The translations under genes and the position numbers were made by a program. From the NCBI RefSeq assembly GCF_018205975.1, contig NZ_CP073577.1, positions 1,054,001-1,118,000 on the forward strand: 64,000 nt of DNA, written 5' to 3'. How positions within the stretch are numbered: the stretch's first letter is position 1; every line of letters starts with the position of its first letter. Shown here in pieces: positions 8,715-32,253 of the stretch. Source of the stretch: Erythrobacter sp. JK5. GTDB taxonomy: Bacteria > Pseudomonadota > Alphaproteobacteria > Sphingomonadales > Sphingomonadaceae. A model generated the notes under the pieces. It was given only the letters and a program-made list of their open reading frames with translations, did no database searches and was not told the origin of the DNA.

Positions 8715-9349
8715 TCCTGGATATTCTCCGTAGCCGCCAAATTCAGCACTTCGTTCAGAAGATCATTCAACTCGGGATATTCGTCGATGTCACATTCATG
8801 GCGGGTAGCAAAGGCTCGTCCTGACGCGCTTAGATACTCGAATACATATCGGGTGCCATCAGCACATATCGTGATCACACCATCATCGGCGACTGGGTTG
8901 TGATACTGCGCTGCATCATAGATATTTGCCGCAGATATTCTTGAATTAAGGCTCTCGAGCTCCGGCGCCTTCAGTTCCCGCGCCCAAGTTACCGCTATTC
9001 CGCCAGGATCATATCCTCCTGCTCCGTTGAGACGGGTGTAGGTTATCGTCGCGGAGCCGTCTTTGCCTTGATCCGAACGCAGGACAATGGCGGGGCTGAA
9101 ACTCGGGAGAACCAGCAAGCGAAACCGGGAATTGAAGGAATACAGGTCGGCTTGGTCCACCAGAGGTTTCTCGTTTGCGGCGGCGAGTTGTTTGCCGAAC
9201 CAATCCTCATAGAAATCGCGGTACCAGGCATTCTCTTCGGGATCGTCATCCCATCCCGCATCGGGAGCGAAATCCGTACCCGCACAAGCCGAGAGAAACG
9301 CGGCGATCAAGGCTGAACAAGCGGCAAGCCGGAATGACGATCTCACCAT
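8711..9349 (-). CDS. Hypothetical lipoprotein
   Basis: A 212-residue protein starting with a lipoprotein signal (hydrophobic stretch ending FLSAC at about residue 22). The rest is polar, with a stretch of aromatic residues (AWYRDFYEDWFGKQL) and a likely C-terminal alpha helix. I recognise no family. The lower half includes DGVITICADGTRYVFEYL, typical of a beta-sandwich, and two cysteines that could form a disulfide in the periplasm. It lies three bases downstream of mutL on the same strand, and its stop overlaps the convergent gene by four bases. Confidence 0.8.
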   Translation of the reverse strand: MVRSSFRLAACSALIAAFLSACAGTDFAPDAGWDDDPEENAWYRDFYEDWFGKQLAAANEKPLVDQADLYSFNSRFRLLVLPSFSPAIVLRSDQGKDGSATITYTRLNGAGGYDPGGIAVTWARELKAPELESLNSRISAANIYDAAQYHNPVADDGVITICADGTRYVFEYLSASGRAFATRHECDIDEYPELNDLLNEVLNLAATENIQD

Positions 9350-18567: not shown

Positions 18568-18593
18568 TCGAAGCCGATCGCAACTGCCAGCCC

Positions 18594-20024
18594 TCAGAAC
18601 GTGCGCACTTGCCGCATGATCCGCGCATCGGCCTCGTCGAGAACGCGATCTACGTCGTCTTCGAACATCGCGAGGCACAGCAGCGGATCTTCGCTCCGCA
18701 GCCGGTGGTACAGCCGGATACCTTCTTCGATCTCGGCGCGCCAGTACGGGCAGTGGGCAGTCTGCGGGGCGAGGCGATCCTGTTCGTACACCACCGAATC
18801 CGCGTAGCAGCCGCCGCCGCAGATGTAGCGCGCCCAGCAATCCCTGCAGTGCGGGCGATTGTCGACTTCGGCTGCCTCGGCGTGGCGGAACGCCTGACGC
18901 CGTTCATCGTCGAGGCCCTCACTCACATGGCCCAGGCGGTACTCCTCCAGCCCGAGATGCCGGAAGCACGGATAGATCGCGCCGTCGGCCCTTACCCCGA
19001 CATAGCTGCCCGCCACTCCGCAGAACCGCGTGATCGGCTGCGGCAGCATCATCCGGCGCACGGTCTTGGCCAGTGGATGATAGTCGATCGGCCGACCGCC
19101 GTTCTTGAGCGTGGTGAAGATCTCGTCGGCGATTGCTGCTGAGTCTTCGATGAAATCGGCCAGGTCGCGGGATCGCAGGTGTTCGTCGCTCTCTTCGTCC
19201 GCGCCGACCTTGATCGCGTGATAGTGCCTGATCCCGAGCGATTGCGCCCAATCCCACAGCTCCGATAACCGCGTTCCGGAACAGAACACGCTGTTCACGG
19301 TAACCCGCTCGGGCAATTCCTCGAGCAGCAGCTTCAGGCCACGCTCGACCAGAGGGTACGACCCGCGCCCGTTGGCCATCGGGCGAAAACGGTCGTGAAT
19401 GGCCGCCGGCCCATCGCAACTGACCCGGATATTGTACGGATGCGCGGCGAAGAACCGCGCGATCTCGGCGGTCACCAGCGTGGCGTTGGTGGTCAGCTCG
19501 AATTCGACCTCCTGCCCGCCTTGCGCCGCCCGGTCGAGCGCCATCGCGGTCAGGGCCTTGAGCTGCTCGAACTGGATCACCGGCTCGCCCGAACCGAAGT
19601 GAAACACGACCTTGGGCGCTCCCTTTGCGGCGGCGAAGGCGAAATCGACCGTCTGCGCCAGCGTCGCATCCGACATCGGCCCGATGCGCGAATTGCTCGG
19701 CTTTTCGAAACAGTATGTGCAGCCCATGTTGCACGCGCCGGGCAGATCGATCGAAACATCGGTCACCTGCGGCGGCGGGGCATCCTTCGCCTCGCGCTTG
19801 GCAGGCACCGGCAGCCGGGTAAGCAGGTCGTTGTCGGCCAGCCATCTCTCGAGCGCGGGATCGCTGCGGGCTGGCGGCCACTGTCCTAACCGATCCGACA
19901 TCTCGTCCGGAACCTCGAACAGATAGGTGCGCTCCAGATCGTACAGCAGCGGACCGTCCGGCTCGCGCGAAATCAGCCTGGTATCGCGGAGCCGCAACGC
20001 ATCGAGCGTTTCCACCTCAGACAT
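18594..20024 (-). CDS. Radical SAM/SPASM peptide-modifying enzyme 1
   Basis: A 476-residue enzyme. Residues 1-90 or so look like a RiPP-recognition (PqqD-like) wing. The radical SAM CxxxCxxC is at Cys98, Cys102 and Cys105 (CNMGCTYC). The C-terminal SPASM domain has the full set: FCGVAGS...GAIYPC, then CRDCWARYICGGGC (the CxxCxxxxxCxxxC pattern) and a last CPYW. Such enzymes make thioether, C-C or other crosslinks in ribosomal peptides. It is the last gene of a three-gene minus-strand operon, overlapping the second radical SAM gene by 8 bases. The precursor is encoded at 21553-21792. Confidence 0.93.
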   Translation of the reverse strand: MSEVETLDALRLRDTRLISREPDGPLLYDLERTYLFEVPDEMSDRLGQWPPARSDPALERWLADNDLLTRLPVPAKREAKDAPPPQVTDVSIDLPGACNMGCTYCFEKPSNSRIGPMSDATLAQTVDFAFAAAKGAPKVVFHFGSGEPVIQFEQLKALTAMALDRAAQGGQEVEFELTTNATLVTAEIARFFAAHPYNIRVSCDGPAAIHDRFRPMANGRGSYPLVERGLKLLLEELPERVTVNSVFCSGTRLSELWDWAQSLGIRHYHAIKVGADEESDEHLRSRDLADFIEDSAAIADEIFTTLKNGGRPIDYHPLAKTVRRMMLPQPITRFCGVAGSYVGVRADGAIYPCFRHLGLEEYRLGHVSEGLDDERRQAFRHAEAAEVDNRPHCRDCWARYICGGGCYADSVVYEQDRLAPQTAHCPYWRAEIEEGIRLYHRLRSEDPLLCLAMFEDDVDRVLDEADARIMRQVRTF

Positions 20025-21543
20025 AGCTGCGCAATTCCGCCGCCGGTTCGCGCGGCGTCAGCGAGTCAGCGTCATCGAGCTCGCCACCCGCCCACTGGGC
20101 GATCTTGGGCGAAACCAGCGCGATCAGCTGCACCGGGTTGGTCCGGGCGAAATGGCGGTAGACGATGATTGCGGCCTCGCTTTCGGCGCGCAGCGAATCG
20201 CATTTCTCGTGGCCGAACCGGTCGACCATTGCCGAACAGCCTCCGCCGCACAGCGTCCGGTTCCAGCACGCACGGCACACTTCCTGCCCTGCGGCGCTGA
20301 ACTTTTCGCGGAAGGCAGCGACCTTGTCAGGATCCGGTCCGTTCTCGACATCGCCGAGCACCGATTGCGGACGCCCGACATGCAATGCGCAGGGATAAAG
20401 CTCGCCATCCGACGAGACACCGAACATGCGATCTCCCGCGGGGCAGAAGAAATCGCGCCGCTTGTGCGTCAGCAGCTGGAGGATCTTCGAGGTCAACCGG
20501 TAATCGAGCGGTTTCTCGCTGCGGTCGATATAGTCGATGTAATGATCGGCCAGATCGCGAATGTCGTCGAGATAGTCGCCGAAGGCATCGTCGACCAGCG
20601 CCAGCGGATCGTCATCGGTCAGCCGCACGCGTTCGGCCTTGCACTGGCTCGCCCCCGTTTCCGCGAGCTTTTCGATCGCCTCGCCGAGACTGTTGGCCTC
20701 GCGCACAACCGACGATCCGATCAGGTGGACGCCGGGCCGCTCGACAAGCAGTCTGAGATTGCGCTCGACATCGGCGTAACTGCCGTTGCCGTTGATATAC
20801 TTGCGCAATTCATCGTGCGTTTGCTCGTCGCTGTCGATCGAATAATAGACTGTGAAGCGATGCTCGGCCATGAAATCGGCGATTTCGGCCGTCAGCAGCG
20901 TCCCGTTGGTGGTGATGTGATAGTCGGTCTCGGTGCCGGTAGCGCGCGCTTTCGCTTCGGCCTGCTCGACGATCCGGCGGATCGCCTTGAAATTGAGCAA
21001 CGGCTCGCCGCCGTAGAAGTGGTAGCCGTAAATCCTCAGTTCCGGAAAATTCGCGTGGATGTGGTCGACGATAGTTTCGGCCCGCGCCATCGGCATCTTC
21101 GGGATCGGCACCTCGCTGTAATCGAAATGCCCCTTGTTCACGTAGCAATAGGGACATGTCAGATTGCAACGCTGCGACACGTTGACCATGAAGGTCGCGT
21201 AGTCGGATGCGTCGGCGATCGGGGCACGCTCGATCGGCTCGGCTGGCCCGACCAGCAGGCCCCGCTCGATCAGGCTGTCGATCATCTCCGCCGCGTGGTC
21301 CGCCGCGATCGCAGCGTCAGTCTGGCAAAAACGTTCGAGCAAACCATCGCGGGAGAGCGGGCCGCCATCGCGGGCGAGCGCGAGCAACGCACCCTCTTCC
21401 GGATTGCTGTCGTGCGCAATGACGCGGTCGATATCGAACAGGTAGTGCCTGCCGCGTGAACCGAAATGGTGGAAAGCGACCGGTTTGAGCGTCGCGGTCC
21501 GCTCCGCCGGCGCCGGGCGGTCAGGGGCTGCGGTAATCGTCAT
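20017..21543 (-). CDS. Radical SAM/SPASM peptide-modifying enzyme 2
   Basis: A 508-residue enzyme that is not closely alike in sequence to its partner outside the motifs. The N-terminal 110 residues resemble a RiPP-recognition domain (HYLFDIDRVIAHD followed by a winged-helix-like part). The radical SAM cluster is Cys126, Cys130, Cys133 (CNLTCPYC), with YHFYGGEPLLN as the GGEP motif. The SPASM domain has DFFCPAGDRM...GELYPC and CRACWNRTLCGGGC with a further Cys. TAGGAG at the precursor stop gives the ribosome site, so translation is coupled to the precursor. Two SPASM enzymes on one precursor suggest two separate chemistries, or a heteromeric enzyme. Confidence 0.93.
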   Translation of the reverse strand: MTITAAPDRPAPAERTATLKPVAFHHFGSRGRHYLFDIDRVIAHDSNPEEGALLALARDGGPLSRDGLLERFCQTDAAIAADHAAEMIDSLIERGLLVGPAEPIERAPIADASDYATFMVNVSQRCNLTCPYCYVNKGHFDYSEVPIPKMPMARAETIVDHIHANFPELRIYGYHFYGGEPLLNFKAIRRIVEQAEAKARATGTETDYHITTNGTLLTAEIADFMAEHRFTVYYSIDSDEQTHDELRKYINGNGSYADVERNLRLLVERPGVHLIGSSVVREANSLGEAIEKLAETGASQCKAERVRLTDDDPLALVDDAFGDYLDDIRDLADHYIDYIDRSEKPLDYRLTSKILQLLTHKRRDFFCPAGDRMFGVSSDGELYPCALHVGRPQSVLGDVENGPDPDKVAAFREKFSAAGQEVCRACWNRTLCGGGCSAMVDRFGHEKCDSLRAESEAAIIVYRHFARTNPVQLIALVSPKIAQWAGGELDDADSLTPREPAAELRSYV

Positions 21544-21552
21544 CGCCCGCTC

Positions 21553-21792
21553 CTACGCGAGCCCCGGACAACCACCTCCTCCGCCGCACAGGATCTCGCC
21601 CGCCAGCGAACCGACCAGATCGTCGAGCGCGGGCAGTGTCTTCTTCAGCCGGGCGATCGCTTCGACATCGGCCCGCGTGACTTCACCGAAAACGCTTTTG
21701 GGATCGGCGAGCAGCTTCTTGCGGAAGGCCGGATCGACAATTGCCTTGGCAAGCGCCTGCTTGCGTGCATCGATTCTGCTTGACTCTTCCAT
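21553..21792 (-). CDS. NHLP-type RiPP precursor with Cys-Gly5-Cys core
   Basis: A 79-residue peptide, preceded by a strong GGAGGTG ribosome site. Residues 8-50 resemble the nitrile-hydratase-leader-peptide (NHLP) type: ARKQALAKAIVD then PAFRKKLLADPKS and a helical part. The C-terminus is unusual, with LCGGGGGCPGLA ending the chain: Cys69, five glycines, Cys75, Pro, Gly, Leu, Ala. It heads the operon whose next two genes are radical SAM/SPASM enzymes, so it is their likely substrate. The two cysteines are the obvious sites for thioether (sactipeptide or ranthipeptide-type) bonds to glycine, or for a metal site. The product class is not identified. Confidence 0.82.
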   Translation of the reverse strand: MEESSRIDARKQALAKAIVDPAFRKKLLADPKSVFGEVTRADVEAIARLKKTLPALDDLVGSLAGEILCGGGGGCPGLA

Positions 21793-22099
21793 TGCCCACC
21801 TCCGTTTTTGGGTAAAGTAGTGAATTCTCCGAGTATTGATTCTATGCGAGAGAGCACAAGATTACCATAATTGCCCGCGATTACAACCGCACTACATCAT
21901 CGCACCGATGAACGCGGCCATCGCGCCGCTCATAGTCTGCGTCTTGCTCTGCGTAGGCTGACTTGCCGCGAACAGAGCCGAAGGGAGCCCGGATCATACC
22001 CCGGCCATCGCACCTCATCGTATTCGGCGAGCATCGACTGTATTGCGTATGCCTCCCTCAATCTTGCGAATAGTGCAATAGTATTTCCGAACTCGCGCG
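21793..22099. other. Divergent AT-rich promoter region
   Basis: A 307-base stretch between the NHLP precursor (minus) and the XRE regulator (plus), clearly richer in A/T than its neighbours. I find no open reading frame that looks real. It should hold the promoters for both directions and probably the operator for the XRE protein, but I could not settle on -35/-10 boxes. A half-site CTACAT (about 21892) resembles the BlaI-type half-site found at 24972, without a second arm. Confidence 0.5.
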
Positions 22100-22498
22100 A
22101 TGTTGACCGCAATTGCGGCCCATTTCATCGTAAGACGACGACAATTTCTCGAGAAACAACTTGAATTTGCCGAATTTCTTTTGCTAGCTGTAACAAATGC
22201 CTCGGCGTCGCAATCCGGATATTCCCCCCAAGACGAACTTGCCTGGTCCTTCGGCCAGCGGGTGGCGACGCTGCGCCGACGCAGCGGCATCGAAACCAAG
22301 ACGCTGGCTGCACGATCGGGAATGAGCCCCAATTACGTCTGGCGTCTCGAACAGGGGCTTGTGGTCCCCAACCTGCGCAACATCGCGCGCCTCGCGATCT
22401 CGCTCGAAGTGCCGCTGCCGATCCTGCTGGAGAAGGTCGACGTGTCTTCGGTACGGCTCGAAAACCGGGCCTACAATCGCCGTGACGCCGCGGAATGA
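22100..22498 (+). CDS. XRE-family regulator of the NHLP operon (probable)
   Basis: A 132-residue protein if ATG 22100 is used. The helix-turn-helix occupies about residues 48-112 (FGQRVATLRRRSGIETKTL, then GMSPNYVWRLEQG and NLRNIARLAISLEV). The N-terminal 45 residues have no family support, and no good ribosome site precedes 22100; a shorter protein starting at an in-frame TTG near 22188 is possible. It is divergent from the NHLP precursor, the usual place for its regulator. The gene stops one base before the end of the TonB receptor gene on the other strand. Confidence 0.75.
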   Translation: MLTAIAAHFIVRRRQFLEKQLEFAEFLLLAVTNASASQSGYSPQDELAWSFGQRVATLRRRSGIETKTLAARSGMSPNYVWRLEQGLVVPNLRNIARLAISLEVPLPILLEKVDVSSVRLENRAYNRRDAAE

Positions 22499-22499
22499 C

Positions 22500-24572
22500 C
22501 TAGAAGCTCCGCTTGTAGGAGATACGCGGGACGAGATGCGAATCGTTGCGTCTGGTTTCGATCAGCACCGGATTGTCCTGTGACCGGTCGGGCGAAAAGA
22601 ACACGCGGCGACGCTCGGTTGGAACATCGAACAGGTTCGACAGGCTGAAGGTCAGCGTGGATTTGTCGTCGGGCCGGATCTGGTAGAACACCGACGCATC
22701 AGGAAACCGCGAAAGCGAGATATCGAACTCGTCGCGCCGGAAACTCGTGCTTTCGCTGCTACCGCTAAGATCGAACCCCCATGCCGTGCGTTTCCCGTCG
22801 CGCCGGAACCCGACGCTGACGCTCGCGATCGGCACGCCGGAAAACCGGCGAGGCTCGAGCGTGTAGGGATCGCGCACGGTGGTGAGGACCAGTGATGACT
22901 GCGCCGTAATTCTTCCACCCGCGATACCGATCCGGTCGAGCGGCAGTTCGAGCGTGGCGTCGACCGCCCACAGATCGGCCGAACCGAGATTGCCCGGCGC
23001 ATCGAACCCGCCCTCGACCGGCACCCGGTCCTGCAACTGGGAAATGCGGTCGTATTCGAGCGTGATCCGCGCCACTCCGTCGCGAAGGATCGGGCGCTCT
23101 GCAGTGAGCTTGACCTCCCAGGCGCGCTGCGGTCGCAATTCGGCGTTGCCGCCGTTGATACGGTCGTCGCGCAATTCCGCAAAGCTGACGAAGTCGTCGA
23201 AATCGAGTTGCGAAACCGTCCGTTCGATCGACAGCTGTACCGAAACCTGATCGGGCGCTTCCCACAACAGCGAGATGTTGGGCTTGACGAACGACAGGGT
23301 TCGCTCGGCCTCGGCATCGCCGGTGACCGACAGGCGCGAATGTTCGAACCGCAGCCCGGTTTCGATCCGCAGCTTGTCGGTCACGCCGAAACCGAGCGTG
23401 GCGAAGGCTTCGGCGCGGTCTTCGCTTACCGTCACATCGTCGACAGGCAGGTCGATTGCCGCACCGCTCGCGAGATCGCTGAGCTGCACCTGGCTGTCCA
23501 GCACGTTGCGCGCGCCTTCTATCCCGACCTGCAAGGATGCACCGCCCAGCACCGCGCGCGAATGGGTGATCCGCCCGATCGTTTCTGTCAGCCGATCGTC
23601 GAGGATCTGCGAAAAGCCGTCCACCACTCCCGATTCCACGTCGAATGCGAACAGGTCTTCGAACAGACGGTCGCGGCGCGAATGCAGCACCACGAATTCG
23701 GTCGCACCGCCCAGCGCCTTGAGCGTCGCGTCCGCGCCGATTTCGAATTCGTCGGTGACATAGTCGGACCGGAACACGTCGCGCGCCGAGGTGGGGCCTG
23801 CGACGGTTTTCAGGTCCTCGAGATAGTCGAAACCGGTGCGCGCATAGCGCAGGTTGAGATGCGCGCTATCCAGCGTTTCTCCGTCGAAGGCATAGTTGAA
23901 CGAAACCGACCGCACCGGTTCATCGATGACAATCGTCTTGGGCCTGACCGATATCGGATCGGCGACCCCGGGCAGAAACAGACGGTCGATCCCGACTTCG
24001 TCGGACGGACCATTGGTATAGCTCCCGGCCAGCGCGAGCGTGTGCCGCCGGGATATCCAGCTGGCCGATCCATCGGCTGAAGCCGTGAGCCGCCCGGCAA
24101 AGTTCCGTTCCAACGCAGCAACGACATTTCCCGAAACGCCATCTTCAGCTGACAGCACCACGTTGGCGACTTGAACCTCACCGGCATAGTCGGCTCCGTA
24201 TCGTTGACCCGGCCCGATCTCGATCCGCACCACGCGGTTCGCCGGTATCCGTTCGAGGACATCGACGAGCGGATCCGACTTGGAACTCGGTCGTTTGCCG
24301 TTGATCACGACATTTCCCGCCGCCTGCGCAAATCCGCGACTGTCGGCATTGCCCAGCCTCAGCGTGAAGCCCGGCACGCGCAAGACCATGTCGAGCGCGT
24401 TGCGCGGCGCGAATGGCGCAAAGAACGCCGCCGGGAAGGTGCCCGTCCCGGTCGCCTTGACCTCATCACCAGCGGCGGGCGGTGCACCTGGCGCGGCCTC
24501 CTGCGCCGAAGCCGCAAACGGTGCCAGTGCGGTAGAAGCCAGCACCGCTGCCATCACGCAGCTGCGCGTCAC
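22500..24572 (-). CDS. TonB-dependent outer-membrane receptor
   Basis: A 690-residue receptor starting at a GTG that overlaps the preceding BlaI-type gene's stop (GTGA). A signal peptide of about 22 residues (ending ASAQ) is followed by a plug domain (MVLRVPGFTLRLG, VINGKRPSSKSDPLVDVLERIPANRVVRIE) and a long beta-barrel ending in KRSF with a terminal Phe. The coupling to a repressor and the location between two RiPP operons suggest import or sensing of a peptide or of a metal complex made by them, but nothing in the sequence names the ligand. The barrel is on the small side for the family. Confidence 0.9.
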   Translation of the reverse strand: MTRSCVMAAVLASTALAPFAASAQEAAPGAPPAAGDEVKATGTGTFPAAFFAPFAPRNALDMVLRVPGFTLRLGNADSRGFAQAAGNVVINGKRPSSKSDPLVDVLERIPANRVVRIEIGPGQRYGADYAGEVQVANVVLSAEDGVSGNVVAALERNFAGRLTASADGSASWISRRHTLALAGSYTNGPSDEVGIDRLFLPGVADPISVRPKTIVIDEPVRSVSFNYAFDGETLDSAHLNLRYARTGFDYLEDLKTVAGPTSARDVFRSDYVTDEFEIGADATLKALGGATEFVVLHSRRDRLFEDLFAFDVESGVVDGFSQILDDRLTETIGRITHSRAVLGGASLQVGIEGARNVLDSQVQLSDLASGAAIDLPVDDVTVSEDRAEAFATLGFGVTDKLRIETGLRFEHSRLSVTGDAEAERTLSFVKPNISLLWEAPDQVSVQLSIERTVSQLDFDDFVSFAELRDDRINGGNAELRPQRAWEVKLTAERPILRDGVARITLEYDRISQLQDRVPVEGGFDAPGNLGSADLWAVDATLELPLDRIGIAGGRITAQSSLVLTTVRDPYTLEPRRFSGVPIASVSVGFRRDGKRTAWGFDLSGSSESTSFRRDEFDISLSRFPDASVFYQIRPDDKSTLTFSLSNLFDVPTERRRVFFSPDRSQDNPVLIETRRNDSHLVPRISYKRSF

Positions 24573-24949
24573 GATGCGTTCCCGGACTGGCGAAGGTTCT
24601 CGATCAGGCTCTCGATCTCGCGCCATTCGCCATCCGTCAGCGGGCCGTCCATCTCGAGAAGCGCGTTGACCGCCGCCGTGCGAGATCCGGCAAACAGAAC
24701 GTCGGTCAGACGGTGGAGGCAGTCGTCGACGATCTCCGCGCAATTCAGACGTACGCGGTAGCTGATATATTCATCGCGGCGGGTTTCGCTGATCAATTGC
24801 TTGCCGACCAGGCGCTTAAGCATCGTTCGCACGGCCGACGCGCTGGGCGCTCCGTCGATATCCGCAATCACTTCCGAAACCGTAGCATCCGGGTTCTTGA
24901 AAACCGCGTCGAAGACTTCTCGTTCCCGGGGTGAAAGCGAATCGCGCAT
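24569..24949 (-). CDS. BlaI/MecI-type transcriptional repressor
   Basis: A 126-residue winged-helix protein with the BlaI/MecI/CopY pattern: LSPREREVFDAVFKN, DATVSEVIADI, SASAVRTMLKRLVGKQLI and a C-terminal dimerisation helix. GGAGGTAACGAG precedes ATG 24949, which sets the start. Its usual partner, the BlaR1/MecR1 antirepressor peptidase, is absent; instead it is coupled to a TonB receptor gene. A palindrome matching this family's operator lies 22 bases upstream, so it probably represses its own two-gene operon. Confidence 0.88.
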   Translation of the reverse strand: MRDSLSPREREVFDAVFKNPDATVSEVIADIDGAPSASAVRTMLKRLVGKQLISETRRDEYISYRVRLNCAEIVDDCLHRLTDVLFAGSRTAAVNALLEMDGPLTDGEWREIESLIENLRQSGNAS

Positions 24950-24971
24950 CTCGTTACCTCCGCATGCCCCG

Positions 24972-24983
24972 CTACATTTGTAG
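24972..24983. promoter_or_regulatory. BlaI-type operator
   Basis: CTACATTTGTAG is an inverted repeat with arms CTACA and TGTAG around TT, the core of the known BlaI/MecI operator (consensus TACTACATATGTAGTA). It sits 22 bases before the start of the BlaI-type gene on the minus strand, where bound repressor would block transcription. It also lies 280 bases before the triceptide precursor on the plus strand, so a shared effect on that operon is possible. Confidence 0.7.
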
Positions 24984-25263
24984 TTTTCCCGCGCTATTGT
25001 GAAACATCGCAATTTCTACTTTCGCATGATTTGGCAAAGTTTTTCATCAAGTGCGCCTTTAAAGTCATTCATATGCCAAAAGATGTTCTTAATTTTCCTC
25101 TATGCTTCAGATGTTTATGCGACTCCCCGGTCGATCGGCGTAGATTCGCGGCGGTTCGGCGGATTGGTTGGCGGGCAAATCGTATACTTCACCTATTCTT
25201 TGTCTGTCGCAGGGGTTGGTGCGGTTACCAAATCTGAAGCGACATTCGAAAAGGAACTGTGAA
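24984..25263. other. AT-rich leader/promoter region of the triceptide operon
   Basis: About 280 bases with markedly higher A/T than the flanks, between the BlaI operator and the precursor start. Open frames exist (for example 24999-25262 on the plus strand) but have no family signs or ribosome site. The region should hold the promoter of the peptide operon; no convincing -35/-10 pair could be fixed by eye. AAGGA (25251-25255) is the ribosome site for the precursor at 25264. Confidence 0.45.
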
Positions 25264-25401
25264 ATGGCGAAGAACAAGACGCCCAAGACTGAAGCAAAAG
25301 CCCAGTCGAAGAGCCTCGAATCGCTGATCGATGCTCAGCTCGACAGCATCGTCGTCGGCGGCTGGTCGCGCACGGTCTTCAACCGCGTCCGCCCGGTCTA
25401 A
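25264..25401 (+). CDS. Triceptide-type RiPP precursor peptide
   Basis: A 45-residue peptide with a well placed AAGGA 8 bases upstream. The leader (1-33) is Lys/Ala-rich and then helical (SLESLIDAQLDSIV), ending in VVGG, a double-glycine cleavage site for a C39 peptidase. The core is WSRTVFNRVRPV: it holds two aromatic-x-Arg triplets, WSR and FNR, separated by Thr-Val, with a Val-Arg-Pro-Val tail. Aromatic-x-x triplets in cores of this kind are the substrates of three-residue cyclophane-forming radical SAM enzymes (XyeB, GrrM, FxsB, and DarE in darobactin). The next gene is such an enzyme. The core is basic (three Arg), as in darobactin-like antibiotics. Confidence 0.88.
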   Translation: MAKNKTPKTEAKAQSKSLESLIDAQLDSIVVGGWSRTVFNRVRPV

Positions 25402-25405
25402 TCGT

Positions 25406-25437
25406 AATTGCCCCGCAGTTTCGTCTGCGGGGCAATT
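25406..25437 (+). terminator. Attenuator-like hairpin after the precursor gene
   Basis: A perfect 13-base stem, AATTGCCCCGCAG (25406-25418) with CTGCGGGGCAATT (25425-25437), and a TTTCGT loop. Only a short T-run follows (GCTTTCC). It lies between the precursor and the first modifying enzyme, where partial termination or 3'-end protection would give far more precursor mRNA than enzyme mRNA, a common RiPP operon layout. Confidence 0.75.
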
Positions 25438-25466
25438 GCTTTCCCAGTACGTCGAGGAGCATGCCG

Positions 25467-26687
25467 ATGTTCGATGTCGAGGCACGTCTTGCCCGTCCTG
25501 GGCGGCGCCATGTGTCGGTCGTGCTTAAGGTGGCCGAACGCTGCAATCTGGCCTGTACCTATTGCTATTTCTTCTTCGGCGGGGACGACAGCTATCTCAA
25601 GCATCCCGCGTTGATTTCGTCTGACAGGGTATCGGATGTTGCCCGGTTCCTGGGCGAGGCCGCGATCAAGCACCGTCTCGAACGGATCGAGATCGCGCTC
25701 CATGGCGGGGAGCCACTGTTGCTCAAGCCCGATCGCATGGGCGCGCTGGTCGAAACCATCCGCGCTGCCGTGCCCGACAGTTGCGAGGTCGACATCCTGC
25801 TCCAGACCAATGGTGTGTTGGTCGACGAAACGTGGATTGCGCTGTTCGAACAGCACTCCATCGGCATCGGGGTCAGCCTTGATGGTCCGCGCGCGGTCAA
25901 CGATATTGCCCGGCTCGACAAGAAGGGGCGCAGCAGCTTCGACGCGACGATTGCCGGCTGGGGCTTGCTCAAGAAGGCCGCCGCAGATGGCCGCATCTCC
26001 GAGCCCGGTATCCTCTCCGTCATCGCTCCCACGACCGATGCGGAGACGCTTTCCTTCTTCATCGACGAACTTGGCGCGCACAGCCTCAATTTCCTGTTGC
26101 CCGATATGTTCTTCGACAATCCGGAAACGCAGCCGGAGGATGTCGCGCGGATCGGCGAGACGATGATCGCGATCTTCGAGGAGTGGCGACGGCGGGCCGA
26201 TCCGGGCCTGCATATCCGGTTCGTCAATGATGCCCTGTTGCCGATGATCGTGGCCATTCCGGCCGAGTCCACCCACCACTGCCGCGAAGATCTGTCGCAC
26301 GCGATGACGATTGCATCGGACGGCACGATCTATGTCGAGGATACGATCCGCAGCGCGTTTGCCGATCGCTTCGACGAAACGCTCAATGTCGCGAGCGCAA
26401 CCCTCGCCGATGTCTTCGCGCATCCCCATTGGCAGAGCATCGCTCGCGCTGCCGAGCAACCGGCCGGACCGTGCACATCGTGTCGCTACGGCGAGATCTG
26501 CCAGGGTGGCCCGCTGATCTCCCGCTACTCGTCCGACAGGGGGTTCGACAATCCCTCGCTCTATTGCTCCGCGCTGTTCGCGTTCCACCGGCATGTCGAA
26601 CGCGAGGTTTCGGCCACCGGGCGCTTGCTGCCCTCTCCGCGCTTTGCCGCGGACCCCCTGTTTCCCGCCCGAAAGGAAGTTGCATGA
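25467..26687 (+). CDS. Radical SAM/SPASM cyclophane synthase (XyeB/GrrM/FxsB-like)
   Basis: A 406-residue enzyme. ATG 25467 is favoured over ATG 25461 because GAGGAG (25454-25459) is then 7 bases away. The cluster motif CNLACTYC is at Cys26, Cys30 and Cys33, followed by YFFFGGDDSYLKHP as in three-residue-cyclophane-forming enzymes. The shortened SPASM end has CTSCRYGEICQGGP and a last LYC, lacking the fourth Cys of full SPASM, which is also usual in that group. It should couple the aromatic side chain to the beta carbon of the third residue (Trp1-Arg3, Phe6-Arg8). It overlaps the next gene in ATGA. Confidence 0.87.
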   Translation: MFDVEARLARPGRRHVSVVLKVAERCNLACTYCYFFFGGDDSYLKHPALISSDRVSDVARFLGEAAIKHRLERIEIALHGGEPLLLKPDRMGALVETIRAAVPDSCEVDILLQTNGVLVDETWIALFEQHSIGIGVSLDGPRAVNDIARLDKKGRSSFDATIAGWGLLKKAAADGRISEPGILSVIAPTTDAETLSFFIDELGAHSLNFLLPDMFFDNPETQPEDVARIGETMIAIFEEWRRRADPGLHIRFVNDALLPMIVAIPAESTHHCREDLSHAMTIASDGTIYVEDTIRSAFADRFDETLNVASATLADVFAHPHWQSIARAAEQPAGPCTSCRYGEICQGGPLISRYSSDRGFDNPSLYCSALFAFHRHVEREVSATGRLLPSPRFAADPLFPARKEVA

Positions 26688-27805
26688 GTGCCGCATGTTC
26701 CGATGACTCGCCCGTTGCACGCCTGCTCGATGAATGCGCGCAGGCAGCTCCTGCCGCCGCTCCGGCAATTGCCCAGACGCTGCTCGCGTTGGTAAAGGTG
26801 CTGCACCGGCGGGCTGCTGCGGCTGCAGCGGACGAAGTGGCACGTGAGCACGCGAAACACATCGCCGCCGCACTCGCGCGGATTGGTCCGGAGCAAGATG
26901 GCGAAATCTGTTTCGCGCTGTGGACCCCGGCAATCGCGGAAACGACCCGCCTCATCGAACGTGGCGAGGCGGAAGCGGCGCTCGTGCAGCTCGCCGCGAT
27001 GCTGCGCGACGCGGGTTTGCCAGCGAAGGAGCCGGAGCCGACCGGGCCGATCGATCGCTTGTGGAGCGATGGCCGGTTCGTCTCGATCGACAGCAGCGGT
27101 CGCCCGGCTCCGCTCGGCGGCGACTGCCGCTGGTATCGGTTACCCGGCATCCGAGACAAATTTGTACTTCCGACCCGCGAAGTGATTCTCGACAATGCCG
27201 ACGTCGAAGTGATGTGGCCCGCACCGCTCGATCATGGCGTGCCGGAGCATGTGCTCAACGAAGCGCAACACGCAATGATCGAGGCGGTACGGTGGATCGG
27301 TGAGGTTTCGCCGCGGCATCTCGCCTGGATCGACCGGCTCGTCTGCGGTTTCGCGATCACCGAAATGCCGGAAGACAGCGACCTCAGCAGCGGCTCCTAC
27401 AAGAGCCGCCCGGGGGTGGTACATATCTCGTTTCCACTCGACCCGGTGATGGTCGCCGAGACGCTGATCCACGAAGCCAGTCACCAGCACTACCTGCTGC
27501 TCAACAGCGTCGTGCCGCTGGTCGATCCGGAGGCGACCGAGTTCGTCTTTTCGCCGATCAAAGGTTGCGAGCGACCGCTGGTTCGCTGCGCCTTTGCGCA
27601 TCACGCCTGCTTCAATATCTGGGATTTCATGCGCCGGGCGCTTTCGGGTCGCTATGGTGTGCAGGCCGGCGAACGCATGGTTCTGATGGCCGGTTACACC
27701 GAGGTGCTGGGCATGAACGTGCTCGCCAGCGGACGCCTGACCGAGGCCGGCACGGCATTCCTTGGCGGATTGCAGGCGCAAACGCTGCTGCCGGAGGCGG
27801 CGTAG
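26684..27805 (+). CDS. HExxH-motif peptide modification protein 1 (putative 2OG beta-hydroxylase)
   Basis: A 373-residue protein with the metal-binding motif HEASH at 263-267 in AETLIHEASHQHYLLL. Proteins with this HExxH domain occur beside FxsB/XyeB-type enzymes; members of the group have been described as 2-oxoglutarate-dependent beta-hydroxylases of peptides despite their protease-like motif. The N-terminal half (about 1-170) is an alpha-helical part with no recognised motif. It starts in ATGA with the radical SAM gene and is followed after one base by the HlyD-like stub. The likely target is a beta position in the 12-residue core. Whether it is a hydroxylase or a peptidase cannot be read from sequence alone. 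Confidence 0.8.
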   Translation: MSAACSDDSPVARLLDECAQAAPAAAPAIAQTLLALVKVLHRRAAAAAADEVAREHAKHIAAALARIGPEQDGEICFALWTPAIAETTRLIERGEAEAALVQLAAMLRDAGLPAKEPEPTGPIDRLWSDGRFVSIDSSGRPAPLGGDCRWYRLPGIRDKFVLPTREVILDNADVEVMWPAPLDHGVPEHVLNEAQHAMIEAVRWIGEVSPRHLAWIDRLVCGFAITEMPEDSDLSSGSYKSRPGVVHISFPLDPVMVAETLIHEASHQHYLLLNSVVPLVDPEATEFVFSPIKGCERPLVRCAFAHHACFNIWDFMRRALSGRYGVQAGERMVLMAGYTEVLGMNVLASGRLTEAGTAFLGGLQAQTLLPEAA

Positions 27806-27806
27806 C

Positions 27807-28090
27807 ATGGACCGCCGCAGCATCTTCCGCTCCGATGCGCTCGAAGCGCAAGCCTACGGCGAGATCGGCGAGCCGCGCCTTACCCTGCCGCGCTGGACCA
27901 TGGCGGCGGCGATCCTGCTGCTGCTTATTCTCGGGGGGCTCTCTACGGAGCGCTCACCGTGCCGATCGAACTGCGTTCGGATGGATGTATTCAAACGGCT
28001 GAGCAAACGCAGACGCGCCAGAGCTGCGAGATTCGCCGCGTCCATCCGGTGGAAGACCTGCTGATCGATCGGCACGGAGAGATGCGGTGA
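27807..28090 (+). pseudogene. Frameshifted HlyD-like N-terminal stub
   Basis: ATG 27807 opens a frame whose first 43 residues or so match the start of HlyD-family membrane fusion proteins: a short head (FRSDALEAQAYGEIGEPRL), then a membrane helix (MAAAILLLLILGG). After the six-G run at 27933-27938 this frame goes on in arginine-rich sequence and stops at 28064. One added base in the G-run (or loss of CT in CTCTCT) restores a sensible continuation, ALYGALTVPIELRSDG, to a TGA at 28088-28090 overlapping the next GTG start. The repaired protein would be about 94 residues, without the coiled-coil hairpin of true HlyD. It could be a sequencing error, a mutation, or a slippage-expressed protein. Confidence 0.7.
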
Positions 28091-30252
28091 TCGGGCGGGC
28101 GCGGCGCGCGCGCAAGACCAGGGTGGAAGTAGTGCTGCACCCGTCCACCACCGATTGCGGGATCGCCAGCCTCAAGATGGTGCTCGGCGCATTCGGCATT
28201 CCCGCCACCATGCCGGAAGTGCGCGCCGCGACGCGATACACTTCCAGCGGCGTAACCGTCGGCAATATCATCAAGACCGCCAAACGCTTCGGGCTCGATG
28301 GCCGCGCGGTGCGGGCCGAACTCGACCAGCTCGACCAGCTCGAACTGCCGGCCATCCTGCACTGGAATTTCAATCATTTCGTCGTGCTCGAGAAGGTCGG
28401 CGCACGGCATGCGACAATCCTCGATCCGAGCCACGGTCGCCAGAGAATCGGGCTTCAGGAGCTGTCGCGCGGGTTTACCGGGGTGGCCGTCGAATTCGAA
28501 CCTTCGGTCGAACTGTCCGCACGCCCGCCGGGCGTTGGCAGCGCTCCGGTCAGGCCGTTTCTTCCGAACCTGCGGGGGCTCGGTGCGTTGACCGCGATGG
28601 CCTTCATGATCGCGCTGCTGTCGCAGGCACTGGTGATATTGGCACCGGTCTGGATGGCGAGCCTTGTCGACAATATCGGAGCGGAGGGCGCGATCGCCGC
28701 GATCCCGCATGCCGCGGCCCTGGTGCTGGGCATGATCGCCGCCGCCGCGATCGCCGAACTGGCGCAGCGCGAAATGCTGCTGCGGGTCGGCGTCATGGCC
28801 AGCCTGAGCTCGAGCAACAAGCTGGTCGATCACCTGTTCCGCCTGAGCTACGGGTTTTTCGGTGCGCGCCGGATCAACGATCTCGTCGCGCGGGTCGGCC
28901 ATATTCGCGATATCCGCGACCTTGTCGTCGAACAGGGCATTCCGGCCGCGATCGACCTGCTGTTCGGCATCCTCGCGCTGTTCGTCCTCTTTCGGTTCAG
29001 CCCGTTCTTCGGCGCGATCAGCCTGGTAATGCTGGGCATCTATTTCCTGCTGCGGGTAAAGCTGCTGGCGCTCAATGCGCGGCTGAACCAGGAACAGGTC
29101 AAGGCCGATTCGACCGAGATGGGCCACCTGATCGAGAACCTGCGCGGTATCCTGACGTTGAAGGCCGCCAATATCGAGCCGCAGCGGCTTTCGATCTGGC
29201 AGTCGGCGCTGCACCGCGGCGGCCTCGCGACCCTCAGGATGCGCCGGCTAGAAACGGTGGTCGGGTCCGCCCGCTTCTCGATCTCGGCGATCGACCAGCT
29301 CGGGATCGTGATCGCCGGCATCTGGCTTGTCGCCACTGGCCAGCTGTCGCTCGGCGTGCTGATCGCGGTGCTGATGATCCGTCAGCAGCTCTACGACCGG
29401 ATGATGACGCTGTTCGACCGGCTGGCACAGCTCGCCCTGATCAAGATGTATGCCTATCGCCTCGCCGACGTGACCGGTGCGAGAGCCGGGCTGTCCTGGA
29501 CGCAGCCCGAGCCGGACGCGTTCGCGACCGCAGCACCGGTGCTGCGCGCCGAGGATGTCTGTTTCCGCTACGCCGACGAGGCACCGCTGGTCGTCGACCG
29601 GACCAGCCTGACGCTGGCCCCGGGATCGATGGTCGCCATTCGCGGCCCTTCGGGTGAAGGCAAGTCGACCTTGCTCAAATTGCTGCTCGGTCTGATCTCG
29701 CCCGAGTCCGGTCGCGTGACCATCGACGGCACCGAGCTCGACGAAGCCGGTTTCCGCGCGTTGCGCGATCGCTCCGGCGTGGTGCTGCAGGGGGAACAGC
29801 TGTTTTCCGGGACGATCCTCGAAAACCTGACGTGGTTCGGCTGCGATCGGGACATGGAACGGGTCGAACATTGCGCCCGGATGGCCTGCATTCACGAGGA
29901 TATCGAGCGGCTGCCGATGGGCTATTTCAGCCCGATCAACGAAGGCATCTGCAACTTTTCCGGTGGCCAGATCCAGCGGATGTTGCTGGCCCGCGCCTAT
30001 TATCGCGAACCGCAGTTCATGCTGCTCGACGAAGCGACGTCGGCACTCGATCCGGAACTGGAGGAACGCGTCGTGGCCGAGCTCGAAATGCATCCGGCGG
30101 CGAAGCTGTGCGTGTCTCACCGCAGCCTGATGCTCGAGCGTGCCGACGTCGTCTATCGGATGGAGGAAGGCCGCCTCGTGCTCGAGCGCGACGGCGCGAT
30201 CGTGCCGTTCGCCCCCGAAGCCAGGGATTTCACCAAGCGCCAGCAGGCGTGA
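28087..30252 (+). CDS. C39 peptidase-ABC transporter (bacteriocin-type exporter)
   Basis: A 721-residue three-domain exporter. GTG 28087 overlaps the preceding TGA. Residues 1-140 are a C39 peptidase with Cys24 (TTDCGIASLK), His97 and Asp113 as a complete triad; His18 stands where most members have the oxyanion Gln. A six-helix membrane domain follows (about 160-440). The ATPase domain has Walker A GPSGEGKST near 520-528, the signature FSGGQIQRM near 624-632, and Walker B FMLLDEATS near 644-652. It should cut the precursor after VVGG and export the core. Its position in the operon makes the precursor at 25264 its likely substrate. Confidence 0.93.
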   Translation: MIGRARRARKTRVEVVLHPSTTDCGIASLKMVLGAFGIPATMPEVRAATRYTSSGVTVGNIIKTAKRFGLDGRAVRAELDQLDQLELPAILHWNFNHFVVLEKVGARHATILDPSHGRQRIGLQELSRGFTGVAVEFEPSVELSARPPGVGSAPVRPFLPNLRGLGALTAMAFMIALLSQALVILAPVWMASLVDNIGAEGAIAAIPHAAALVLGMIAAAAIAELAQREMLLRVGVMASLSSSNKLVDHLFRLSYGFFGARRINDLVARVGHIRDIRDLVVEQGIPAAIDLLFGILALFVLFRFSPFFGAISLVMLGIYFLLRVKLLALNARLNQEQVKADSTEMGHLIENLRGILTLKAANIEPQRLSIWQSALHRGGLATLRMRRLETVVGSARFSISAIDQLGIVIAGIWLVATGQLSLGVLIAVLMIRQQLYDRMMTLFDRLAQLALIKMYAYRLADVTGARAGLSWTQPEPDAFATAAPVLRAEDVCFRYADEAPLVVDRTSLTLAPGSMVAIRGPSGEGKSTLLKLLLGLISPESGRVTIDGTELDEAGFRALRDRSGVVLQGEQLFSGTILENLTWFGCDRDMERVEHCARMACIHEDIERLPMGYFSPINEGICNFSGGQIQRMLLARAYYREPQFMLLDEATSALDPELEERVVAELEMHPAAKLCVSHRSLMLERADVVYRMEEGRLVLERDGAIVPFAPEARDFTKRQQA

Positions 30253-30281
30253 CCTGCCGAGCCAATCAGGAGGACTGCTCG

Positions 30282-31355
30282 ATGTACTGCGAACTCAGGA
30301 AAACGCTGCAGTGGGAAAATCCGATGAGCGAGGCGGGCGCGCTGGCGCGCAATCTCGAACGCAATGCCGCGCGACGTTACGACAGATTTCTCAACGACGA
30401 CGAGCGGCTGTTGCCCGAAGAGCGCGTGCGGCTCGAGGCGGCCGCCGCGCTGCTGGACGAAAGCGACCGGATTGCCTGCATCTCTTCACCGCAGGGCATC
30501 TTCGCCAGCAGCCGGATGTGCGAACCCGATACCGCGATCGAATATTTCGAAGGCGCTTTCGCCGTCGCGGCGATCGAGACCGGCAAAAAGCCGAAGTCGC
30601 GCGCTGCAGCGATCTGGTCGGCCAAGGGCGATCGCTCTTACCGCATCGATCCCGCTGGCGACGGAGATTGGGAACTTGCCTACAGCGCGCCGGTGCTCGA
30701 CGGCTACCTTCCGATCGACACGCGGTGCCCGGCGACGCAGGGCATCATTCCCGGCGTCGATAGTGGCGCCGAGCCGATCGACGAAGCCACCGAGAGCGAC
30801 ATCCTGGCGCTGTTGTTCACCGCCTATGCGCTGGTCGAGAGCGGATCGCCCCTCGCCCGGCGCTTCCTCGAAGACTTCGCCCGCGTCATGGTCGCGCGCA
30901 ATTCACGCGCGGACGAAGGGTTCCATTCTGGCGGCGCGCGGGTGACTGCAGGGCGAATGGTAATGACCAATCCGCTGTTCGCGCGGGACAAGCCGGAATT
31001 GATCACCGACGGGCTGGTTCATGAATCGATCCACTGCGCGATCGACCATTGCGAATTCGTCGCGCCGATCCTCACCGTGGTGCAGACCGATGCCGCGATC
31101 GTTTCGCCATGGACGGGTAAATTGCTCGACATCAACACCTTCATCCATGCGAGTTTCGTCTGGTACGGTCTGGTGCATTTCTGGACGCTCGCCAATGCCC
31201 GCACTTCGCAGCCGACCCCCGGAGCGCTTGAAATGCTGGCCACGGCGCGGCGCGGCTTCATTCGGGCGCGCCCGAGCGAACTGATCGCCCCCTTCACCGA
31301 TCTGCTGAATCCCGACGTGACCCGCGCCCTCGGCGAGATGGAGATGCCGGGATGA
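30282..31355 (+). CDS. HExxH-motif peptide modification protein 2
   Basis: A 357-residue protein, started at ATG 30282 with CAGGAGGA upstream. It carries HESIH at residues 247-251 (DGLVHESIHCAIDHCEF), the same metal motif as the 26684 protein. Overall sequence likeness between the two is low, so they are probably distant members with different target residues. Two such enzymes for one 12-residue core suggest hydroxylation at two positions. It is the last plus-strand gene of the operon, 29 bases after the exporter, and its stop is three bases from the convergent oxygenase gene. Confidence 0.78.
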   Translation: MYCELRKTLQWENPMSEAGALARNLERNAARRYDRFLNDDERLLPEERVRLEAAAALLDESDRIACISSPQGIFASSRMCEPDTAIEYFEGAFAVAAIETGKKPKSRAAAIWSAKGDRSYRIDPAGDGDWELAYSAPVLDGYLPIDTRCPATQGIIPGVDSGAEPIDEATESDILALLFTAYALVESGSPLARRFLEDFARVMVARNSRADEGFHSGGARVTAGRMVMTNPLFARDKPELITDGLVHESIHCAIDHCEFVAPILTVVQTDAAIVSPWTGKLLDINTFIHASFVWYGLVHFWTLANARTSQPTPGALEMLATARRGFIRARPSELIAPFTDLLNPDVTRALGEMEMPG

Positions 31356-31358
31356 TCG

Positions 31359-32063
31359 TCAGTCGGCTTCCGATTTGGTCGTGAAGAAGCCCGAGATCGC
31401 TGCGCGAAAGGCTTCGCCCGCGGCGCTGTCCACCTTCTTCACCATGTGACGGATTCCGGATCGGAATGCGACGAGTCGATTGGGCACCGGCGCGAGAAAT
31501 CGTCCGTCTCCGGGGCCGCCATCCAACGCCTGGCTGATCGAGCCGTAGAATTCGCGGTGCCTCGACGGTGCCACCCCCTCAGTGCCGCTGTCGGGGGAGC
31601 GCGGGTCTTCGATCAGCAGTTCCCCGCCCCAGCTGTCGTGCCATTCGGGGTGGACATAATAGATAAAGGCCCCCGAATGCCCCTGGTCCGCATGCCAGCC
31701 CAGCCCGCATCCCGGCGGGTAGAGCGAACAATTGAAGGCGATGTGAGTCCAGGGTTCGAACCCGGCCGCAAAGGCCGCGAACCCCTTGGTCGCGAACATC
31801 GCCTGAAAGAGCCGCATGATCGGGTTGGCTGCCCCCGTCCCGACAGAGGGGACCGCCGCGCTCGGATCGTCGTGGACTTGCAGGAAGTGACTCTCCGAAG
31901 TCCAGCTTTCGCCATCGGTAAGGCGATAGACGCGCGACAGGCCCTGTTCGTGAACCCGGCTGAACGATTGCGCGAGGAAGAACTGCCACAGCGCCTCGTG
32001 TTCGGCCTCGGATAACAGCCCGTCGGACACGACGATGGCATTCTCGGGATGGCGGATCGGCAT
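31359..32063 (-). CDS. 2OG-Fe(II) dioxygenase, prolyl-hydroxylase-like
   Basis: A 234-residue protein of the double-stranded beta-helix 2-oxoglutarate oxygenase fold. ATG 32063 has GGAGCAGGA upstream; an in-frame ATG 33 bases earlier is possible. The iron ligands are visible as HAD (His124, Asp126 in LGWHADQGHSG) and His206 (RSGIRHMVKK), with a following Arg (about 220) for the 2-oxoglutarate carboxylate. It is convergent to the RiPP operon and only three bases from it. It may be a third hydroxylase for the peptide (a Pro lies in the core tail) or an unrelated housekeeping enzyme; position is the only link. Confidence 0.8.
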   Translation of the reverse strand: MPIRHPENAIVVSDGLLSEAEHEALWQFFLAQSFSRVHEQGLSRVYRLTDGESWTSESHFLQVHDDPSAAVPSVGTGAANPIMRLFQAMFATKGFAAFAAGFEPWTHIAFNCSLYPPGCGLGWHADQGHSGAFIYYVHPEWHDSWGGELLIEDPRSPDSGTEGVAPSRHREFYGSISQALDGGPGDGRFLAPVPNRLVAFRSGIRHMVKKVDSAAGEAFRAAISGFFTTKSEAD

Positions 32064-32253
32064 GGCAGTGTCCTGCTCCCGCGACCTCGACGCCACGCAT
32101 GCAAGTCGATCAAATCGCGGGAGAAAGATACGGTGTTAGCGCAGGCCGGTCTATCAATAATGCGTTGATCGGCCCGGTGCATATGCCGAATGCGACCAGG
32201 CCGACTCCACTTGTGCCGCTTGCAATCACATTACGATGTGATATATTTGAGCA

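Follow-up and report, generated by a model that had tools for sequence, protein, structure and literature searches.

A probable Xye-like triceptide operon with two distantly related HExxH proteins in Erythrobacter sp. JK5

The genome of Erythrobacter sp. JK5 is one contig of 3.34 Mb, from which we analyzed a stretch of 64,000 nucleotides (NZ_CP073577.1, positions 1,054,001 to 1,118,000; hereafter the window, in whose numbering its coordinates are given). At 25264-31355 the window carries an operon for a ribosomally synthesized and post-translationally modified peptide (RiPP) that, taken as a whole, is probably best explained as a Xye-like triceptide operon. Very probably the operon serves to make and export a short peptide with cross-links. 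The peptide class and its Arg-ended triplets are already known, and the novelty sits in the second of two enzymes with HExxH motifs, referred to here as HExxH-A and HExxH-B. An earlier note, made from the sequence alone, had described such an operon; the operon is real, but its core is less unusual, and its second HExxH enzyme more unusual, than was claimed.

The operon and its predicted product

Every part named in the earlier note was found, in the order precursor, radical S-adenosylmethionine (SAM) enzyme, HExxH-A, HlyD-like stub, exporter of the C39-peptidase ATP-binding cassette (ABC) type, and HExxH-B:

25264-25401, forward strand: precursor (P0001), an open reading frame (ORF) of 45 residues with a double-Gly leader and core WSRTVFNRVRPV, compared with XyeA and its relatives
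25404-25439, forward strand: hairpin with a 15-pair stem and a 6-base loop, between the precursor and enzyme genes (fold of 25396-25465: -31.6 kcal/mol, z -5.07)
25461-26687, forward strand: radical SAM/SPASM enzyme (P0002) of the cyclophane-forming group, Xye side, placed by profiles, PDB match and tree
26684-27805, forward strand: HExxH-A (P0003), motif HEASH, candidate peptide beta-hydroxylase dependent on alpha-ketoglutarate (aKG); TIGR04267 69.2 bits, E 4e-19
27807-28064, forward strand: HlyD/CvaA-like N-terminal stub, an 85-residue ORF with one hydrophobic stretch; likeness by eye, no model match
27938-28090, forward strand: second frame of the stub, containing two Cys and ending 4 bases inside the ABC gene; a run of six G lies close to the junction of both frames
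28087-30252, forward strand: C39-peptidase ABC exporter (P0005); Peptidase_C39 (E 6e-31), ABC_membrane and ABC_tran
30282-31355, forward strand: HExxH-B (P0006), motif HESIH, divergent and without the family Arg; TIGR04267 29.0 bits, E 9e-7

The five genes other than the stub are all open, with a third-position GC of 0.75-0.83. The 3' end of the radical SAM gene shares 4 bases with the HExxH-A gene; the earlier description of all genes as overlapping, however, does not hold for the precursor and radical SAM genes, which are separated by 59 bases with the hairpin, or for HExxH-B, which starts 29 bases after the ABC gene. Among the loci fetched from other genomes for comparison (L numbers), L083 and L023 have the same order of precursor, radical SAM, HExxH, short HlyD-like piece and C39 ABC genes but, unlike the window, lack a second HExxH gene at that place. 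L083 (6814-12074) follows the window up to the exporter and has a core with H-x-S triplets.

In the proposed pathway, the leader, which ends in VVGG, would guide the precursor to the radical SAM enzyme. This enzyme would then join Trp1 to Arg3 and Phe6 to Arg8, from a ring carbon to the Arg beta-carbon, with loss of 4 H. As the next step, HExxH-A would hydroxylate a beta-carbon in or beside a ring; candidate residues in the core are Phe and Pro, types that tested family members hydroxylate, with Asn as a further one. HExxH-B, from the 3' end of the operon and a separate branch of the family, would make a second, probably oxidative, change. Finally, the C39 domain is predicted to cut after GG and the ABC protein to export a basic, bicyclic peptide of 12 residues, with the HlyD-like stub as an export partner that may have been reduced to its N-terminal membrane piece.

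The ATG of the precursor gene is preceded by AAAAGGA, which resembles a ribosome-binding site, and at the junction VVGG is followed directly by WSRTVFNRVRPV, which holds the triplets WSR and FNR. In 200,000 random 12-mers with the composition of four window proteins, two [WFY]xR triplets occurred in 188 and two [WFYH]x[RKNDQ] triplets in 1,959. The hairpin behind the gene would be in keeping with more precursor than enzyme being made; no long T run follows it, and a search of 24800-25600 against Rfam gave no match.

The earlier note had considered the Arg-ended triplets unusual. They are ordinary, since both published cross-links and relatives contain them. A review describes links of Trp to Arg or Asn made by XncB and of Tyr and His to Arg made by YhhB; a Phe-to-Arg link is not named in its accessible part (PMC11002830). 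In XyeA of Xenorhabdus bovienii (L086) SGG is followed by WVNVFARWDKAI, which includes F-A-R; the L023 precursor has AGG and then AGHSSWNRTGRG, containing SSWNRTGRG with the triplet W-N-R; that of L016 has SGG and QVCFGRSEFLRGDGHSK, with FGR and FLR; and that of L044 has YGG-DDAS, FDLS repeats and WSR at its end. Behind the L044 precursor gene (8825-9022, reverse strand) lie genes for a radical SAM enzyme, a prolyl-oligopeptidase-like protein, HlyD and a C39-ABC protein. The tie between these enzymes and aromatic-x-Arg cores, on which the earlier note relied, holds only in part. The L083 core contains ISGAAAHGSAHGSGHASGHLS, with HGS, HGS, HAS and HLS, and precursors with aromatic-x-Gln repeats adjoin Xye-side radical SAM genes in L017 (6671-6910) and L024 (10709-11020, reverse strand); Arg is therefore not the rule, but the aromatic-x-x pattern is still kept. 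L024 belongs to the same genus as the window.

Several lines of evidence place P0002 among the enzymes that form cyclophanes. It has the motif CNLACTYC and C-terminal Cys residues at 338/341/347/369, and its three top-scoring profiles are all of cyclophane-forming families, namely YhhB (276.1 bits, E 4e-82), XyeB (266.8 bits, E 2e-79) and FxsB (247 bits, E 3e-73). Its top match in the PDB, by far, is the radical SAM domain of ChlB (9gm3, E 3e-54). Moreover, in a tree of 28 rows, from which the distant radical SAM protein of L020 was omitted, P0002 falls with XyeB of Xenorhabdus in a set of ten rows (support 96/93) apart from the YhhB, HaaB/FxsB and Rhizobium rows; the branching order within the set has no resolution. 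YhhB, the nearest family by profile bits, was dropped as a candidate, as the tree sets P0002 apart from it. Profiles, PDB match, tree and the triplets of relatives thus agree with the earlier assignment to the triceptide type. Relatives of P0002 at E 1e-30 were found in 10 of 396 genomes of the order, its own included, and a scan of genome contigs gave two loci only (48% over 43 residues).

Export by a C39 transporter, as the earlier note proposed, is likewise the predicted function of P0005, which unites the three expected domains in one protein. We see in it by eye the Cys, His and Asp that we take to be the C39 motif. The stub before it starts with MDRRSIFRSDALEAQ and after about residue 44 continues in the other frame, up to 28090. 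At the same place L023 has a frame of 51 residues starting MSNSFFRAEALK, and L083 has, between its HExxH and ABC genes, an intact ORF of 135 residues with a hydrophobic stretch and two Cys, which gave no match to family models. The stub is thus a shared part of such operons, as both loci have a short counterpart there. In the xye operon HlyD is full-length and begins in a similar manner (SIFRPEALQ). Against the family models the window stub gave no match, and the full periplasmic part is missing; the N-terminal stub also gave no match in plasmids. The frame break may be real or a base-calling error.

Two branches of HExxH proteins

The two hydroxylases of the earlier note fared differently. 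HExxH-A is a candidate member of the aKG-HExxH beta-hydroxylase family (TIGR04267, cut-off 40 bits), as it scores above the cut-off and has an Arg at position +5, with positions counted after the SPx motif. HExxH-B scores below the cut-off and lacks this Arg, so that its label as a hydroxylase is uncertain, and it represents a little-known branch. In PDB searches with the single sequences, read up to E 1, ChlH (8s5f) was the sole match of either protein, and a weak one (E 0.013 for P0003 and 0.029 for P0006), whereas their alignment profiles match it at E 7e-21 (A2, from P0003) and E 4e-8 (A1, from P0006). Compared directly they share 23% over 103 residues (E 0.13), which is not significant alone, but their alignments match each other with 97.6% probability. 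The two are distantly related and are not recent duplicates.

A tree of 23 HExxH domains, with the PflC-type row L081 among them, places P0003 with L023, L083, L088 and L026a (98/93) and P0006 with L026b1, L026b2, L019, L020, L042 and L082 (99/98). A weaker branch (90/84) separates L081 and the seven-row P0006 clade from the remaining rows; the inner order of the tree is unsure because several branches are long. The Arg at +5, a putative holder of 2-oxoglutarate, is present in all 16 rows outside the P0006 clade, L081 included, and is replaced by Leu or Ile in all seven inside it (Leu in P0006). Five TIGR04267 members (L069, L070, L071, L074 and L079) were omitted from tree and count, and these have the Arg by eye in 5/5. 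A His at +12 is found in L081 and ten canonical rows, thus in 11 rows that do not belong to the P0006 clade, and in five of the seven that do, P0006 among them, the other two having Gln; in the P0003 clade the His stands three residues later, at +15, in 5/5 rows. In printed alignments ChlH and 22nu carry the +5 Arg, and 22nu has Gln at +12. The His is therefore less strictly kept than the Arg. A C-terminal Thr that is kept in 15/16 other rows is missing in P0006. The idea that the PflC-like protein shares the pocket of HExxH-B and has also lost the Arg proved wrong, as L081 keeps it.

P0006 is rare. A search of 296 genomes of the order at E 1e-3 returned no protein but P0006 itself; the genome of L026 came up in the larger sample, of 396 genomes, that was searched for relatives of P0002. 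At E 1e-15 the P0006 alignment has matches in two genomes (its own and G396) out of 385 of the class. TIGR04267 matches occur in 11 of 299 genomes of a phylum sample, nine of them above the cut-off, and scans of viral contigs with both HExxH alignments found no relative. Sixteen fetched loci have such a radical SAM gene together with a HExxH gene or domain (the window, L018, L019, L020, L023, L025, L026, L027, L028, L029, L030, L031, L043, L047, L083 and L088), the radical SAM protein of L020 being only 25% like P0002 over 240 residues. Of these, only the window and L026 combine the P0003 and P0006 branches. L026 encodes one protein of the P0003 branch and two of the P0006 branch, plus YcaO and TfuA; its radical SAM enzyme and that of the window fall into different tree sets. 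The operon in the window may thus have arisen from an Xye-like one, similar to L083/L023, through the gain of a P0006-type gene downstream of the exporter.

Radical SAM genes lie beside five of the seven members of the P0006 clade, namely P0006, the two of L026, and those of L019 and L020. On a Rhizobium plasmid (L019, 4986-6884) a repeat protein of 632 residues (MHDQTHSEGGG-like), which looks like a very large multi-core precursor, precedes the radical SAM gene and the P0006-type HExxH gene. L026 (5760-12698), from a genome of the same family as the window, has its three HExxH proteins, radical SAM, YcaO and TfuA together. A Nonomuraea locus outside the 16-locus set also has radical SAM and HExxH matches.

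Comparison with known systems

The closest system is Xye, represented by the X. bovienii locus L086 (xyeA-xyeB-hypothetical-HlyD-C39 ABC), which we take to be the xenorceptide system. The two share a radical SAM tree set of ten rows without a clear inner order, a core that starts with W after GG, an F-x-R triplet, and a HlyD-type protein encoded before the C39 ABC gene. The window differs by its two HExxH proteins and by the reduction of HlyD to a stub; it lacks the third triplet of XyeA (WDK), the gene for the 'hypothetical protein' of L086 (5173-6036) was not seen in it, and it falls below the XyeB cut-off with no match to the XyeA model.

With ChlB/ChlH and the fused radical SAM-aKG-HExxH proteins of YhhB type, the window shares a ChlB-like radical SAM enzyme and HExxH alignments that both match ChlH, but its proteins are separate, the tree puts P0002 with Xye, the His of HExxH-A stands three residues further on and HExxH-B lacks the Arg. 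Asp and His are hydroxylated by the fused enzyme after cyclophane formation (PMC12636437). PflC/PosC (pfl/pos) are of the same superfamily, and a PW[ST]G motif occurs both in PflC-like L081 and in HExxH-B. The pfl-like locus L081 encodes a precursor ending QQQQIQARMD, a HEATH protein and an MNIO-nitroreductase neighbour; unlike HExxH-B, its HExxH protein has retained the Arg and falls outside the clade of seven rows, and no radical SAM gene adjoins it. PesO, an aKG-HExxH proline hydroxylase, belongs to the superfamily by name and acts in a different pathway; the window core also has a Pro near its end.

Weighing the alternatives

Several results weigh against the Xye-like reading. P0002 is under the equivalog cut-offs of YhhB (445 bits), XyeB (450) and FxsB (370), and no relative found exceeds ~38% identity with it over most of its length; the positions of the rings may therefore differ from those proposed. 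P0001 has no match in the family-model libraries, and none at E 0.01 to the XyeA model TIGR04495, with which XyeA of L086 scores 69.3 bits. At L045 and L046, of the same ten-row tree set, no precursor was recognised. The split of the stub over two frames means that export could be impaired. HExxH-B is under its cut-off and misses the Arg, and single-sequence AlphaFold models of both HExxH proteins failed (mean pLDDT, the predicted local distance difference test, of 41 for P0003 and 36 for P0006).

Part of this evidence would also fit a radical SAM enzyme that makes another bond or an epimer, with triplets that arose by chance. Two aromatic-x-[RKNDQ] triplets have a chance of ~1% in 12 random residues, and P0002 does miss the cut-offs of the cyclophane families; however, it is nested beside XyeB, and its relatives repeat aromatic triplets, so we regard this explanation as improbable. 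A decaying operon, with an orphaned exporter and no product outside the cell, would account for the frame-split stub. It is very improbable given that the remaining five genes have open frames and a high third-position GC, that the L023 piece of 51 residues is about as short as the undisturbed start of the window stub, and that the run of six G may conceal a sequencing error.

There is about an even chance that HExxH-B is a second ordinary aKG beta-hydroxylase, in which other residues hold 2-oxoglutarate, and that the product carries two hydroxyls. It keeps HExxH, SPW and the His at +12, its alignment matches ChlH, and L081, which joins its clade, is of a published hydroxylating type; the consistent split at +5 and the missing C-terminal Thr speak against this. 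Rather unlikely, in our judgment, is that the P0006 branch gave up the Arg and has turned the shared iron fold to a different reaction, for example with another co-substrate or in C-terminal processing, so that one 12-residue triceptide would meet two mechanistically different HExxH enzymes. It is also unlikely that HExxH-B is a processing enzyme, oxidative or zinc-hydrolytic, which trims the C-terminal VRPV tail or another site. For PflC/PosC, both hydroxylation of Gln and oxidative cleavage of the backbone at a C-terminal motif are described, as is hydrolysis by PflC in the absence of the leader (PMC12636437); furthermore, the HExxH-B gene is the last one, behind the exporter, and no other C-terminal peptidase gene was noticed in the operon. 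However, C39 alone could release the peptide, and no further precursor of exactly this type was found in which a conserved C-terminal motif might be seen.

Under the Xye-like reading the operon matters in two respects. The aKG-HExxH proteins are a young family, for which the accessible parts of the literature name hydroxylation of His, Asp, Phe and Gln by earlier members and of Pro by PesO of the nitrilobacillins (PMC13060819), together with one oxidative cleavage. With a short substrate and one member from each HExxH branch, the role of the missing Arg becomes directly testable. Among the titles and abstracts searched, with most subscription papers outside reach, none concerned a triceptide with two HExxH proteins. 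The products of Xye are, we presume, the xenorceptides. A new Xye-like peptide would be a candidate antibacterial (xenorceptides are described as binding and blocking BamA in the accessible part of PMC12971899).

Genomic setting

The operon lies in ~13.7 kb (18568-32253) between the end of a tRNA-Lys gene (18567) and the start of ribBA (32254), a region that also holds two further radical SAM/SPASM genes with an NHLP-clan precursor and the following genes:

22500-24743, reverse strand: TonB-dependent receptor adjoining the repressor (PF00593)
24569-25012, reverse strand: BlaI/CopY-type repressor, a possible regulator, divergent from the precursor (Penicillinase_R match)
31359-32096, reverse strand: 2-oxoglutarate-Fe(II) oxygenase, convergent, a possible third tailoring enzyme (Pfam PF13640/PF13661)

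Of 99 genomes of the family, only its own has the oxygenase at E 1e-8, and the protein gave no PDB match at E 0.01; a Serratia plasmid (L091) encodes a distant relative in the neighbourhood of a C39-ABC gene. That the 3' region of the tRNA is repeated at the right edge of the insertion was rejected, as it comprised only 11 bases inside the oxygenase gene and was taken as chance.

The second RiPP cluster (18594-21792, reverse strand) consists of a precursor gene (21553-21792), whose product ends in LCGGGGGCPGLA, and radical SAM/SPASM genes at 20017-21543 and 18594-20024. The precursor matches the NHLP clan with 28 bits, below the cut-off of 40, and the top scores of the radical SAM proteins are to PapB, nif11 and quinohemoprotein maturases, each below cut-off.

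We found ribBA in 40 of 41 genomes of the genus, from which 20 loci were returned, the window's own genome included; 16 loci of relatives were scanned for tRNA genes, and three on short contigs (L062, L063 and L066) were left out. A tRNA-Lys(CTT) gene flanks ribBA in 10/16, at 0.1-0.2 kb in nine and at ~1.1 kb in L058. No tRNA-Lys or rodA neighbour lies within ~11-12.5 kb in G381, G332 and G798. The distance is ~1.9 kb in G091, ~2.7 kb in G205 and ~6.1 kb in G277, where apparent efflux-pump genes lie in between. Among the plasmid records listed, the best matches to the ribBA and mrdA-rodA DNA of the genome were from Novosphingobium (73%) and Sphingomonas (68%), as would be likely for a host in the Sphingomonadales. 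The spot between tRNA-Lys and ribBA is nearly empty in some genomes of the genus and holds other cargo in others.

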